A stretch of DNA of 34,716 nucleotides from Oscillospiraceae bacterium (GTDB taxonomy: Bacteria; Bacillota; Clostridia; Oscillospirales; Oscillospiraceae). The stretch is taken from NCBI GenBank assembly GCA_017410425.1, contig JAFQQV010000051.1, positions 1-34,716 of the forward strand, in the 5' to 3' direction. The notes below the pieces were generated by a model. That model worked only from the letters and a program-made list of their open reading frames with translations, did no database searches and was not told the DNA's origin. Made by a program: the position numbers and the translations under genes. Below are positions 12,043 through 15,931 of the stretch, piece by piece; position 1 is the stretch's first letter; the number at the start of each line of letters is the position of its first letter.

Positions 12043-12098
12043 GTGACATTGTCACGGAAGATTATTTTTCTATCGCATATAATAAAGCCACAAAGAAA
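12043..12098 (+). promoter_or_regulatory. Rubredoxin promoter with GTGA-N5-TCAC dyad and shared 17-mer
   Basis: The perfect palindrome GTGACATTGTCAC (12043-12055) precedes a perfect TATAAT (12078-12083); the -35 position (CGGAAG) is non-consensus. If transcription starts near 12090, the dyad centre (12049) is at about -41, where class II activators bind. The 17-mer ATAAAGCCACAAAGAAA (12082-12098) recurs identically upstream of desulfoferrodoxin at the same distance (33 bases) from the dyad centre. Confidence 0.7.
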
Positions 12099-12156
12099 AG
12101 AGAAGCATAAACAATCTAAAATATAATTCACACTAATATACAGGAGGTATAAAATT

Positions 12157-12312
12157 ATGAAGCATGTTTGCGAAGTATGCGGCTGGGAATACAATGAGGC
12201 CGAAGGTTTTGCCGAAGGCGGTATCGCTCCCGGCACCAAGTGGGAAGACATCCCTGAAGATTTCGTCTGCCCCCTGTGCGGCGTAGGCAAAGAGAACTTC
12301 TCCGCAGAATAA
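12157..12312 (+). CDS. Rubredoxin
   Basis: A 51-residue one-iron electron carrier. The two cysteine pairs that hold the iron are CEVCG (Cys5, Cys8) and CPLCGVGKENF (Cys38, Cys41), with the usual WEYNEAEG and PGTKWEDIPEDFVCP segments between them, so the fold is complete. AGGAGG lies nine bases before the ATG. It is monocistronic, with promoter and terminator, but is followed by desulfoferrodoxin, whose active site is re-reduced by rubredoxin in anaerobes. The two genes also share promoter architecture, so the physiological pairing is well supported. Rubredoxins also serve other partners such as rubrerythrin, which is not in this window. Confidence 0.96.
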   Translation: MKHVCEVCGWEYNEAEGFAEGGIAPGTKWEDIPEDFVCPLCGVGKENFSAE

Positions 12313-12324
12313 ATTAAAGATTAC

Positions 12325-12356
12325 AACAGGCTGTGAAAACAGCCTGTTTTTTGCTT
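12325..12356 (+). terminator. Rubredoxin terminator
   Basis: AACAGGCTGT (12325-12334) pairs with ACAGCCTGTT (12339-12348) around GAAA, then a T-rich tail. Confidence 0.85.
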
Positions 12357-12377
12357 TTCAAAACATTTTTCTCCTTA

Positions 12378-12434
12378 TGTGAGAAAGTCACAGAAAACAA
12401 TAATCGTTCCTGTTATTATAAAGCCACAAAGAAA
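12378..12434 (+). promoter_or_regulatory. Desulfoferrodoxin promoter with the same dyad and 17-mer
   Basis: TGTGA-GAAAG-TCACA (12378-12392) is followed by TATTAT (12414-12419) and the 17-mer ATAAAGCCACAAAGAAA (12418-12434). Dyad centre to 17-mer is 33 bases, as at rubredoxin. The -35 position (CAGAAA) is again non-consensus, which suggests an activator-dependent promoter. Confidence 0.7.
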
Positions 12435-13506: not shown

Positions 13507-13541
13507 TACAGGGAAAAACTCATTCACAAAAAATTCAATAT

Positions 13542-13561
13542 TAATAATGATTATTATTATT
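13542..13561. promoter_or_regulatory. Fur/PerR-like box upstream of ahpC
   Basis: TAATAATGATTATTA (13542-13556) is a perfect 7-1-7 palindrome differing from the PerR consensus (TTATAATNATTATAA) by one position in each arm. Read as a 19-mer (13543-13561), it matches 16 of 19 positions of the classic Fur box. It abuts the -35 of ahpC, a repressing position. No fur or perR gene is in the window. Confidence 0.7.
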
Positions 13562-13588
13562 GACAAATGAGTTAGTTTATGCTAACTT
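13560..13588 (+). promoter_or_regulatory. ahpC promoter with overlapping AGTTAG-N6-CTAACT dyad
   Basis: A perfect TTGACA (13560-13565) and, 17 bases on, a poor TAACTT (13583-13588). AGTTAG (13570-13575) and CTAACT (13582-13587) form an 18-bp dyad covering the spacer and -10. It loosely resembles DtxR-family operators, which is a suggestion only. Confidence 0.55.
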
Positions 13589-13655
13589 ATAGTCACAAGG
13601 AATAAACAAGCAACGAACTCAAACAATAAAACTAATAATAAAGGAGATTAAAAAT

Positions 13656-14219
13656 ATGTCTTTGATCAATAAGGAAGTTTCCGATTTCAGCGTACAGGCT
13701 TTTGTAGATAACAATTTCAAGACCGTCAGCAAGTCTGACATTCTCGGCAAGTGGAGCGTATTCTTCTTCTACCCCGCAGACTTCACCTTCGTCTGCCCCA
13801 CCGAGCTTGAGGATCTGAACAACATCTATGACAAGTTCCAGGATGCCGGCTGCGAGATCTACTCCGTATCCACCGACACCCACTTCGTCCACAAGGCATG
13901 GCACGATCACTCCGAGCGCATCAGCAAGCTCCGCTACCCCATGCTGGCTGACCCCACCCACGTTATCTCCCGCGACTTCAACGTTCTGATTGAGTCCGAC
14001 GGTATGGCAGAGCGCGGCAGCTTCATCGTCAATCCTGAAGGCAAGATCGTATCCTACGAGGTAAGCGCAGGCAATGTTGGCCGTAACGCAGACGAGCTCT
14101 TCCGCAAGCTGCAGGCATGCCAGTTCGTATACAGCCACGGTGACGAGGTCTGCCCCGCAAAGTGGCAGCCCGGTGCCGAGACTCTCAAGCCCAGCCTTGA
14201 CCTGGTCGGCATGCTGTAA
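13656..14219 (+). CDS. ahpC: Alkyl hydroperoxide reductase peroxidase subunit AhpC (typical 2-Cys peroxiredoxin)
   Basis: Reduces hydrogen peroxide and organic peroxides with a redox-active cysteine. At 187 residues it is the typical AhpC length. The peroxidatic Cys47 is in FYPADFTFVCPTE, the catalytic Thr44 is three residues before it, and the resolving Cys166 is in DEVCPAKW near the C-terminus. Arg119 in MAERGSF matches the conserved active-site arginine. AAAGGAG precedes the ATG. The next gene, 92 bases on, is an AhpF-like reductase. A terminator lies between them, so the reductase is probably made at a lower level through read-through or from its own promoter. Control by a peroxide- or metal-sensing Fur-family repressor is suggested by the upstream box. 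Confidence 0.96.
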   Translation: MSLINKEVSDFSVQAFVDNNFKTVSKSDILGKWSVFFFYPADFTFVCPTELEDLNNIYDKFQDAGCEIYSVSTDTHFVHKAWHDHSERISKLRYPMLADPTHVISRDFNVLIESDGMAERGSFIVNPEGKIVSYEVSAGNVGRNADELFRKLQACQFVYSHGDEVCPAKWQPGAETLKPSLDLVGML

Positions 14220-14233
14220 TAATTGATACCCAT

Positions 14234-14264
14234 ACAGCGCCGGAACAATCCGGCGCTGTTTTAC
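14234..14264 (+). terminator. Terminator or attenuator between ahpC and the AhpF-like gene
   Basis: ACAGCGCCGG pairs with CCGGCGCTGT around AACAAT, followed by TTTTA. It may set a higher AhpC than reductase level. Confidence 0.8.
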
Positions 14265-14311
14265 TAAAAACCAAGGCAAATTATATTAAGCCCCAAGGAG
14301 GTAAAAAACGA

Positions 14312-15931
14312 ATGAAAAATTTATATGACGTAGTCGTTATCGGCGGCGGCCCCGCGGGGCTTACCGCAGCAATATATCTGGCAAGAGCAAAGTACCGTGT
14401 ACTGGTTGTGGAAAAGGAAAAGTTCGGCGGTCAGATCACCATCACCCATGAGGTTGTGAATTACCCCGGCGTAGGCCGCACCAGCGGCGCAGAGCTCACC
14501 GAAACCATGCGCCAGCAGGCGGAATACTTCGGCGCAGAGTTCATGCTGGCAAGCGTTGACAAGCTGGATATGTCCGGCGATGTGAAAACCGTTTACACCG
14601 ATCGCGGCGAGCTGAAGTGCTTCGGCGTGCTGCTGGCTACCGGCGCCCACCCCCGCATGGTTGGCTTTCCCGGCGAGGAAGATTTCCGCGGCCGCGGTGT
14701 TGCCTACTGCGCCACCTGCGACGGCGAGTTCTTCACCGGCAAGGACGTATTCGTCATCGGCGGCGGATTTGCCGCAGCCGAGGAGGCAGTATTCCTCACC
14801 AAGTACGCAAATCACGTCACCATTCTGGTGCGCCGCGACGATTTCTCCTGCGCCAAGAGTGCAGCAGATGCAGCACGCAATCACCCCAAGATCACCGTGC
14901 TCACCAACACCGAGGTGGACGGCGTATTCGGCGACAACACTCTCCGCTCCATCCGTTATCGCAACAAGCTCAGCGGCGAAGTCACCGAGCACAAGGCCCC
15001 CGAGGGCAGCAACATCGGCGTGTTCGTATTTGCAGGCTATGAGCCCGCAACTTCCCTTGTAAAGGGTCTGGCAGAGCTGGACGGCTCCGGCTACATTGTC
15101 ACCGACACCAACATGAAGAGCTCCGTTGAGGGTCTCTATGCCGCAGGCGATGTTCGCATCAAGCCTCTGCGTCAGGTGGTCACCGCCACCGGTGACGGCG
15201 CACTGGCAGCCACCGAGCTTGAAAAATATGCAGCATCCATGCAGCGCAAAACCGGCCTTGTGCCCCAGCGTCCCGAGAAGGAGGCCGCTCCCGCTCCCGT
15301 GCAGGAAAAAGCCAAGGCTGAGCCTCAGAGCTCCGGCAGCCTCTTTGATGCAAACATGCTGGCCCAGCTCAACACCGTGTTCTCCAGAATGGCGCAGCCT
15401 CTTGTGCTCAAGCTGACTCTGGACGATCGTCCCGTGTCCAGAGAGCTGAAGGGCTACATGGAAGAGCTCAGCTCCCTCACCGACAGGCTGAGCGTGGAGA
15501 TCTCCGACGAGGGTGACGATGCCCCTGTTGTCCGTATCTGCCGCGCAGACGGCAGCTGGACCGGCCTTGCCTTCCACGGTGTGCCCGGCGGGCATGAGTT
15601 TACCAGCTTCGTGCTGGGTCTCTACAACGCTGCAGGCCCCGGTCAGGCAGTGGATGAAGAGTCTGTCAGGAAGATCCGCGCCATCGACAAGGATGTGGAC
15701 ATCAAGGTCCTGGTCTCTCTCAGCTGCACCATGTGCCCCGAGCTTGTGACCGCAGCCCAGCGCATCGCAGCCGAAAGCAGCAAAGTCACGGCTCAGGTCT
15801 ATGATCTGAACCACTACCCCGAAATCCGCGACCGCTACAACGTGATGAGCGTGCCCTGCCTCGTGATCGGCGACGGCGAAGTGGTCAGCTTCGGCAAGAA
15901 AAACGTAAAGCAGATACTCGAGCTGCTGTAA
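14312..15931 (+). CDS. AhpF-like reductase with permuted domains (TrxR core plus C-terminal double thioredoxin fold)
   Basis: Predicted to move electrons from NAD(P)H through FAD and disulfides to AhpC. Residues 1-310 are a thioredoxin reductase: FAD motif GGGPAG (11-16), active disulfide Cys133-Ala-Thr-Cys136, second dinucleotide motif GGGFAA (150-155), and GLYAAGDVR for the flavin. A proline-, alanine- and glutamate-rich linker (about 320-345) follows. The rest resembles the AhpF N-terminal domain, a tandem thioredoxin fold with the redox pair Cys472-Thr-Met-Cys475 in SCTMCPELV. E. coli AhpF has the opposite order, with the double thioredoxin domain first, so this is a circular domain arrangement; related fusions exist in other clostridia. 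CCAAGGAGG precedes the ATG. Next to ahpC, it is the obvious reductase partner, although it may also serve thioredoxin-like proteins. Confidence 0.9.
   Translation: MKNLYDVVVIGGGPAGLTAAIYLARAKYRVLVVEKEKFGGQITITHEVVNYPGVGRTSGAELTETMRQQAEYFGAEFMLASVDKLDMSGDVKTVYTDRGELKCFGVLLATGAHPRMVGFPGEEDFRGRGVAYCATCDGEFFTGKDVFVIGGGFAAAEEAVFLTKYANHVTILVRRDDFSCAKSAADAARNHPKITVLTNTEVDGVFGDNTLRSIRYRNKLSGEVTEHKAPEGSNIGVFVFAGYEPATSLVKGLAELDGSGYIVTDTNMKSSVEGLYAAGDVRIKPLRQVVTATGDGALAATELEKYAASMQRKTGLVPQRPEKEAAPAPVQEKAKAEPQSSGSLFDANMLAQLNTVFSRMAQPLVLKLTLDDRPVSRELKGYMEELSSLTDRLSVEISDEGDDAPVVRICRADGSWTGLAFHGVPGGHEFTSFVLGLYNAAGPGQAVDEESVRKIRAIDKDVDIKVLVSLSCTMCPELVTAAQRIAAESSKVTAQVYDLNHYPEIRDRYNVMSVPCLVIGDGEVVSFGKKNVKQILELL

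Follow-up and report, generated by a model that had tools for sequence, protein, structure and literature searches.

The window, a stretch of 34,716 nucleotides from an Oscillospiraceae bacterium, carries a rubredoxin gene and, downstream of it, a desulfoferrodoxin gene (dfx), each preceded by an inverted repeat of the form GTGA-N5-TCAC and a predicted promoter (Table 1). The source genome (G000; G labels denote genomes and L labels denote loci) is 1.8 Mb in size and 64.5% complete. The rubredoxin scores 78.3 bits with its Pfam family (cut-off 23) and 75.6 bits with NF045768, which is below the cut-off of 90. The desulfoferrodoxin exceeds the cut-offs of both of its Pfam families, and its score of 128.6 bits with TIGR00320 is below the cut-off of 146.9. 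Because a terminator-like hairpin followed by a T run separates the two genes, each probably forms a transcription unit of its own, with a promoter similar to that of the other.

Table 1. Operators, promoter elements, and genes of the rubredoxin–desulfoferrodoxin region of the window.
Feature	Position	Strand	Remarks
Operator 1, GTGACATTGTCAC, N5 dyad	12043..12055	.	centre 12049 = -41 of predicted start
Degenerate -35-like CGGAAG, rubredoxin promoter	12055..12060	+	conserved GA 12057-12058 = -33/-32
-10 box TATAAT, rubredoxin promoter	12078..12083	+	22 bases past operator 1
Predicted initiator C(-1) A(+1), rubredoxin promoter	12089..12090	+	within common 17-mer 12082-12098
Rubredoxin, 51 aa	12157..12312	+	PF00301; Shine-Dalgarno aggagg 12142-12147
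Terminator-like hairpin aacaggctg...cagcctgtt and T run	12325..12352	+	between rubredoxin and desulfoferrodoxin genes, by eye
Operator 2, GTGAGAAAGTCAC, N5 dyad	12379..12391	.	centre 12385 = -41 of predicted start
Degenerate -35-like CAGAAA, desulfoferrodoxin promoter	12391..12396	+	sequence and 54-promoter alignment
-10 box TATTAT, desulfoferrodoxin promoter	12414..12419	+	22 bases past operator 2
Predicted initiator C(-1) A(+1), desulfoferrodoxin promoter	12425..12426	+	within common 17-mer 12418-12434
Desulfoferrodoxin (superoxide reductase family), 127 aa	12487..12870	+	PF01880 and PF06397

An earlier note on this DNA had pointed out that both dyads precede the same 17-mer, ATAAAGCCACAAAGAAA, by 33 bases, and the arrangement is exact: the 17-mer begins at 12082 and 12418, counted from dyad centres at 12049 and 12385 (dyads 12043-12055 and 12379-12391). 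The first dyad has 5-base arms (GTGAC...GTCAC), and the second is mismatched at the fifth base. At both genes, the 17-mer starts within the -10 box. The genome search for the dyad plus 17-mer that the note had proposed was carried out with the pattern GTGAN5TCAC-N{20,32}-ATAAAGCC. In the whole 1.8 Mb genome, only the two window places matched (reversed control 0); a search of 60 genomes, including this one, yielded one extra place each in G003 and G016, both upstream of thioredoxin.

Relaxing the pattern revealed a preferred geometry. In 61 genomes of the genus, GTGAN5TCAC with a TATAAT 10-38 bases further on was matched 28 times (reversed control 6), in 14 cases with a distance of exactly 22 bases. 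We then tabulated inner gaps of 2-9 against spacers of 17-27 in 102 genus genomes. The cell combining N5 with spacer 22 holds 19 of the 98 matches, whereas the other 87 cells have a mean of 0.9 and a maximum of 8, and the reversed control for the whole pattern sums to 36. The cell combining N9 with spacer 23 holds 8 matches, of which 6 are, by eye, copies of a single repeated sequence. Across 295 genomes of the order, the pattern GTGAN5TCAC-NG-N20-TATNNT, which contains a G learnt from the genus sites, occurs at 161 sites in 96 genomes and 66 of 149 genera, with a reversed control of 0. The spacing table and this control rule out a chance origin of the dyads. Searches allowing mismatches were noisier: with at most one mismatch, summed matches numbered 48 in the 61 genus genomes (reversed control 10) and 90 in the 15 genomes behind the named loci (control 31), and at most three mismatches gave 60 matches in the window genome (control 29). 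Given the latter noise, only the eight window-genome matches with at most two mismatches were weighed.

Promoter anatomy was derived from 54 promoters, obtained from 62 by removing near-identical sites and selected for exact arms, spacer 22, a TANNNT -10 box, and a nearby ORF with a Shine-Dalgarno sequence. Since the source loci were fetched by dfx, by the regulator described below, by PF13545, or by the pattern itself, gene counts in this set lean toward dfx and the neighbors of the regulator. One promoter (L125) is out of register, having TATAAT at spacer 20. The operator consensus is GTGAY-N3-RTCAC, preceded by a weak T; the selection itself fixes both arms, the spacer, and some of the -10 box. 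At positions free of selection, G is found at -33 in 52/54 promoters and A at -32 in 46/54, leaving a degenerate -35 element, nnGAAn, of which the CGGAAG and CAGAAA of the window are examples. The -35 regions thus lack a consensus, as the earlier note had stated, and the -10 boxes that it named, TATAAT and TATTAT, each lie 22 bases past the dyad. The start, likewise free of selection, consists of C(-1) in 43/54 and A(+1) in 47/54 promoters, followed by an A-rich stretch. This is unusually strict: among 99 other sigma-A-type promoters taken from these loci, C(-1) is found in 22 and A(+1) in 51.

With predicted starts at 12090 and 12426, both dyad centers fall at -41. The promoters therefore have the class II arrangement (center near -41.5, degenerate -35) that the earlier note had suspected, as counted from the conserved CA, a predicted start. 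Past the -10 box, the CA, and the A-rich start, little is conserved downstream in the 54 promoters. Judged from this alignment, the 17-mer is the end of the -10 box plus the CA start and an A-rich run; a separate leader element, which the note had considered, is rejected.

The eight window-genome sites comprise five upstream of redox genes, one lacking an ORF (C25), and two that resemble chance matches (C32 and C34). Besides rubredoxin and desulfoferrodoxin, the redox targets are thioredoxin (C12), a rhodanese whose start resembles that of a lipoprotein (C24), and, at C55, where the right arm of the dyad reads TTAC, a flavoprotein similar to thioredoxin reductase (TIGR01292 182 bits, below the cut-off of 343). 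Hence, the two-member regulon initially envisaged is too small for this genome alone. Among the first ORFs behind the 54 promoters, Pfam recognized thioredoxin (20), desulfoferrodoxin (7), rhodanese (5), 4Fe-4S ferredoxin (4), pyridine-nucleotide-disulfide reductase (3), and rubredoxin (3); a by-eye check established that these six classes represent 42 different ORFs. By eye, the other 12 are ccdA/DsbD-like (2), DUF6132-like (3), short-chain-dehydrogenase-like (2), or of other or unknown kinds (5). The one ccdA/DsbD-like ORF that was tested has NCBIfam matches below cut-off, and the one DUF6132-like ORF tested (L127) matches PF19628. At the ccdA-side operators of L127, L135, and L140, the first gene encodes a small membrane protein (DUF6132 in L127), an uncharacterized candidate for thiol or metal handling.

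Relatives add further targets. From named genomes, 22 of the 30 fetched loci, picked for operator-like sites, were inspected. Sites at oxygen-related genes, which the earlier note had hoped to see, occur at ferritin (L311) and flavodiiron-type (L335) genes. Other targets are, in Anaerotruncus colihominis, a protein resembling CoA-disulfide reductase (L347; 511 bits, cut-off 579) and, in Clostridium citroniae, one containing rubredoxin domains (L325). A CopA-like ATPase lies downstream of a dyad with spacer 23, but the TTGACC at its -35 makes it a doubtful target. Named strains with sites include Anaerotruncus colihominis JM4-15, Clostridium citroniae WAL-17108, and Konateibacter massiliensis, and in Evtepia gabavorous KLE1738 a dfx site with spacer 23 and a gene for a 3dv8-type regulator (see below) share one locus. 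In two genomes, the operator is followed by a 123-residue protein (L299:1606-1974 and a similar ORF in L307), for which no Pfam or NCBIfam family was found at E 1e-5 (L299).

Upstream of dfx itself, the site is rare. Among 30 dfx loci fetched in the genus, where dfx has at least 38 matches, an N5 dyad within approximately 110 bases upstream was found only at the window's own gene and in L016, where the spacer is 23 and the GA is absent; no dyad was found at the second dfx of the window genome. In a set of 77 dfx loci from named records, in which the genus itself is represented by one or more genomes (L064, identical to G078), nine loci carry an N5 dyad in the 259 bases upstream. Seven of these have a -10 box at spacer 22, one has it at 23, and one lacks a good -10 box. 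The same regions contain one N2 dyad and no other gap length from N2 to N9. Other rubredoxin sites appeared only in G061 and G078 among the places examined. Given this rarity, rubredoxin and desulfoferrodoxin are patchy members of the regulon, whereas thioredoxin is its core. The expectation that relatives would keep the dyad and spacing at homologous promoters is borne out mainly at thioredoxin and only patchily at the two window genes. Oxygen- and superoxide-related genes are indeed among the targets, as had been claimed, but as a whole the target genes suggest a role in thiol/disulfide homeostasis no less than in superoxide defence.

Some neighboring features deserve description in their own right. 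In L003, L004, and L135, the thioredoxin operator is, by eye, nested in a longer inverted repeat, GCCTTAT...ATAAGGC, which may be the terminator of the neighboring gene. The window-genome site without an ORF (G000:C25:51683-51723, minus strand, locus L263) combines an N5 operator with a -10 box TATTAT and is followed by CTTTCCTCCT, which is complementary to a Shine-Dalgarno sequence, and then by a strong terminator. Its transcript is a candidate redox-controlled small RNA of approximately 80 bases, as read from these elements; it has no Rfam match up to E = 1, and its only matches, short ones in the terminator region, occur in 3 of 101 other genus genomes. In the window, a by-eye peroxiredoxin-like and AhpF-like gene pair (13656-15931) has a different promoter region (13536-13600) with an AT-rich palindrome-like stretch, attaataatgattattattattgaca. 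We take this stretch to resemble a Fur/PerR box; if it is one, the pair belongs to a separate peroxide regulon.

PF13545 matches identified Crp/Fnr genes next to several sites. In G016, G071, and G029, such a gene is flanked by the thioredoxin and ccdA-side sites; in G003, G008, G078 (spacer 21), and G076, it is no more than approximately 500 bases away from a site. Nine site-adjacent proteins align with one another. The three proteins tested score above the cut-offs of PF00027, PF13545, and PF00325, which places them in the Crp/Fnr superfamily, and fall far below those of the NCBIfam CRP equivalog (33.9-47.1 bits, cut-off 266) and Fnr subfamily (31.7-42.9 bits, cut-off 228). The best PDB relative is 3dv8, which the profile matches with 372 bits and the protein of the window genome (G000:C80:2508-3164) with 281 bits over 217 residues; next come CooA (1ft9, 65 bits) for the profile and 7pza (36 bits) for the window genome's protein. 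According to the available text of PMC6955866, 3dv8 is the solved structure of a Crp/Fnr family protein from Eubacterium rectale. Three cysteines (C43, C77, and C83) and an RExxxR motif (R183, E184, and R188) are invariant in 48/48 distinct homologs and are also present in 3dv8. Full-length similarity together with the three cysteines assigns these proteins to a 3dv8-type group, and by sequence the regulator of the window genome is an ortholog of 3dv8.

The distribution of this protein matches that of the sites. At E <= 1e-25, a 3dv8-type protein was found in 114 of the 295 order genomes (78/149 genera). The site is present in 79 of these 114 genomes compared with 17 of the 181 regulator-negative genomes (Fisher p 2.7e-27), and 142 of the 161 sites fall in regulator-positive genomes. 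No exact site was found in 35 of the 114 positive genomes. The 17 negative genomes carry one or two sites each, and the Y5/R9 operator symmetry is seen in 6 of the 18 listed sites from negative genomes (19 in total). Among the sites listed (150 of 161), one lies within 1 kb of 41/120 regulator matches and within 5 kb of 52/120, whereas even placement would give approximately 0.6% of regulators a site within 5 kb. Near the 30 best-scoring of the 120 regulators (105.6 kb), we counted 20 N5 dyads, compared with one N2, four N3, one N4, three N6, and none from N7 to N9. The operator is therefore not of the N6 type of CRP and HcpR (20 N5 versus three N6), and the remark in the earlier note that N5 differs from the N6 of CRP holds. 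In the window genome, no dyad was found near the regulator gene, which argues against autoregulation there. The activator that the note had left unnamed is thus probably a 3dv8-type Crp/Fnr protein, as suggested by co-occurrence, adjacency, and the invariant cysteines.

Taken together, the two dyads very probably serve as operators in a thiol/oxygen-defence regulon of gut Clostridia, where a Crp/Fnr protein of the 3dv8 type would bind them and activate the genes in class II fashion. The sites, their geometry, the target genes, and the co-occurrence and proximity of the regulator are direct observations; binding by this protein, activation, and the signal are inferred. A dimer would bind GTGAY-N3-RTCAC centered at -41, just upstream of the degenerate -35 (nnGAAn), and would recruit sigma-A RNA polymerase to a good -10 box and a strict CA start. 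Through C43, C77, and C83, the protein probably detects when the thiol pool becomes oxidized (oxygen, disulfide, or sulfane sulfur), and it would then switch on the genes for thioredoxin and its reductase, rhodanese, rubredoxin, and desulfoferrodoxin as well as related genes. With somewhat less assurance, we favor a broader reading, namely that an undescribed family of three-cysteine Crp/Fnr redox/persulfide sensors controls this regulon across many genera of gut Clostridia through an operator with one base fewer than the CRP site, which leaves the class II register of the downstream subunit unchanged.

The signal may differ from the one favored here. With the same regulator and operators, it is conceivable, though we lean against it, that reactive sulfane sulfur (persulfide or polysulfide), not oxygen or disulfide stress, is sensed: rhodanese, CoA-disulfide-reductase-like, thioredoxin, and ccdA-like targets recur, and the regulator has three invariant cysteines, whereas the desulfoferrodoxin, rubredoxin, ferritin, and flavodiiron-type targets indicate oxygen. 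Repression by a protein blocking the -35 region is improbable. The operator does abut the -35, and Crp/Fnr proteins can act in either mode (available text of PMC545781), but a degenerate -35 combined with a retained -10 box, start, and 22-base spacing is the class II pattern, and we infer activation. Equally doubtful is binding of the dyads by a different, co-inherited transcription factor. The N5 gap, compared with the N6 of CRP, would fit such a factor, as would the sites in genomes where a 3dv8-type protein was not found. G061 (71% complete) has clear sites, yet its PF13545 matches are weak (best 2.2e-8) and the fetched protein (L171) is of another type; in G012, which also has sites, the Crp/Fnr protein fetched (L147, one of two matches) likewise belongs to another type. 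Co-occurrence and adjacency of regulator and site argue against this, as does the CRP-like RExxxR helix, which is expected to read GTGA. The N6 gap of HcpR, described in the available text of PMC545781, bears on the point in the same way as that of CRP. Interpreting the 17-mer as a leader RNA element or a duplicated segment, with incidental dyads, is hardly credible: the 17-mer is identical at both genes, but little beyond the -10 box, CA, and A-rich start is conserved in the 54 promoters and the dyads recur without it.

A Crp/Fnr protein known from a structural entry gains from this analysis a DNA site, a set of target genes, and a signal that can be tested. The regulon suggests one way in which genes for thioredoxin, superoxide reductase, and sulfur transfer are coordinated in strict gut anaerobes, and the named strains with sites make the regulon testable in culture. 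The N5 operator also offers a clean test of the register change that Crp/Fnr dimers tolerate. In the open-access literature, a description of this operator or regulon was not found, by searches some of which probably miss the spelling Crp/Fnr. The only paper found there to name 3dv8, PMC6955866, gives neither target genes nor an operator for it in the available text.

Among known systems, class II activation by Escherichia coli CRP is the obvious reference. A CRP site has N6 between its GTGA and TCAC half-sites, and the downstream half-site of a class II promoter occupies -38 to -35. The present promoters share the half-sites, the center beside the -35, the sigma-A -10 box, and the downstream half-site at -38 to -35; they differ in having N5, which brings the upstream half-site one base closer than in CRP. 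The C77/C83 segment of the regulator appears to align where the cAMP protein Vfr begins its ligand-binding loop. HcpR of sulfate reducers and clostridia likewise combines CRP-like half-sites with anaerobic hosts and electron-transfer genes, but in the available text of PMC545781 its sites, such as TTGTaAAtTtTTTCACAA, have N6, unlike the N5 operator described here, and its main targets are hcp and frdX. PgRsp of Porphyromonas gingivalis, likened here by description only, is also a redox-related Crp/Fnr protein, and 3dv8 served as the template for its model (PMC6955866). The available text of that paper places PgRsp outside the best-characterized families, most similar to CooA and NnrR (about 5-20%), and proposes heme as its ligand; a count of the term "consensus" in the main text gave 0. 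CooA, a heme/CO sensor, has a cysteine in the same segment as the 3dv8-type regulator and is its second-best PDB profile match, but the 65 bits of 1ft9 are far below the 372 of 3dv8, and the CooA site is TGTCGGC-N2-GCCGACA (available text of PMC545781).
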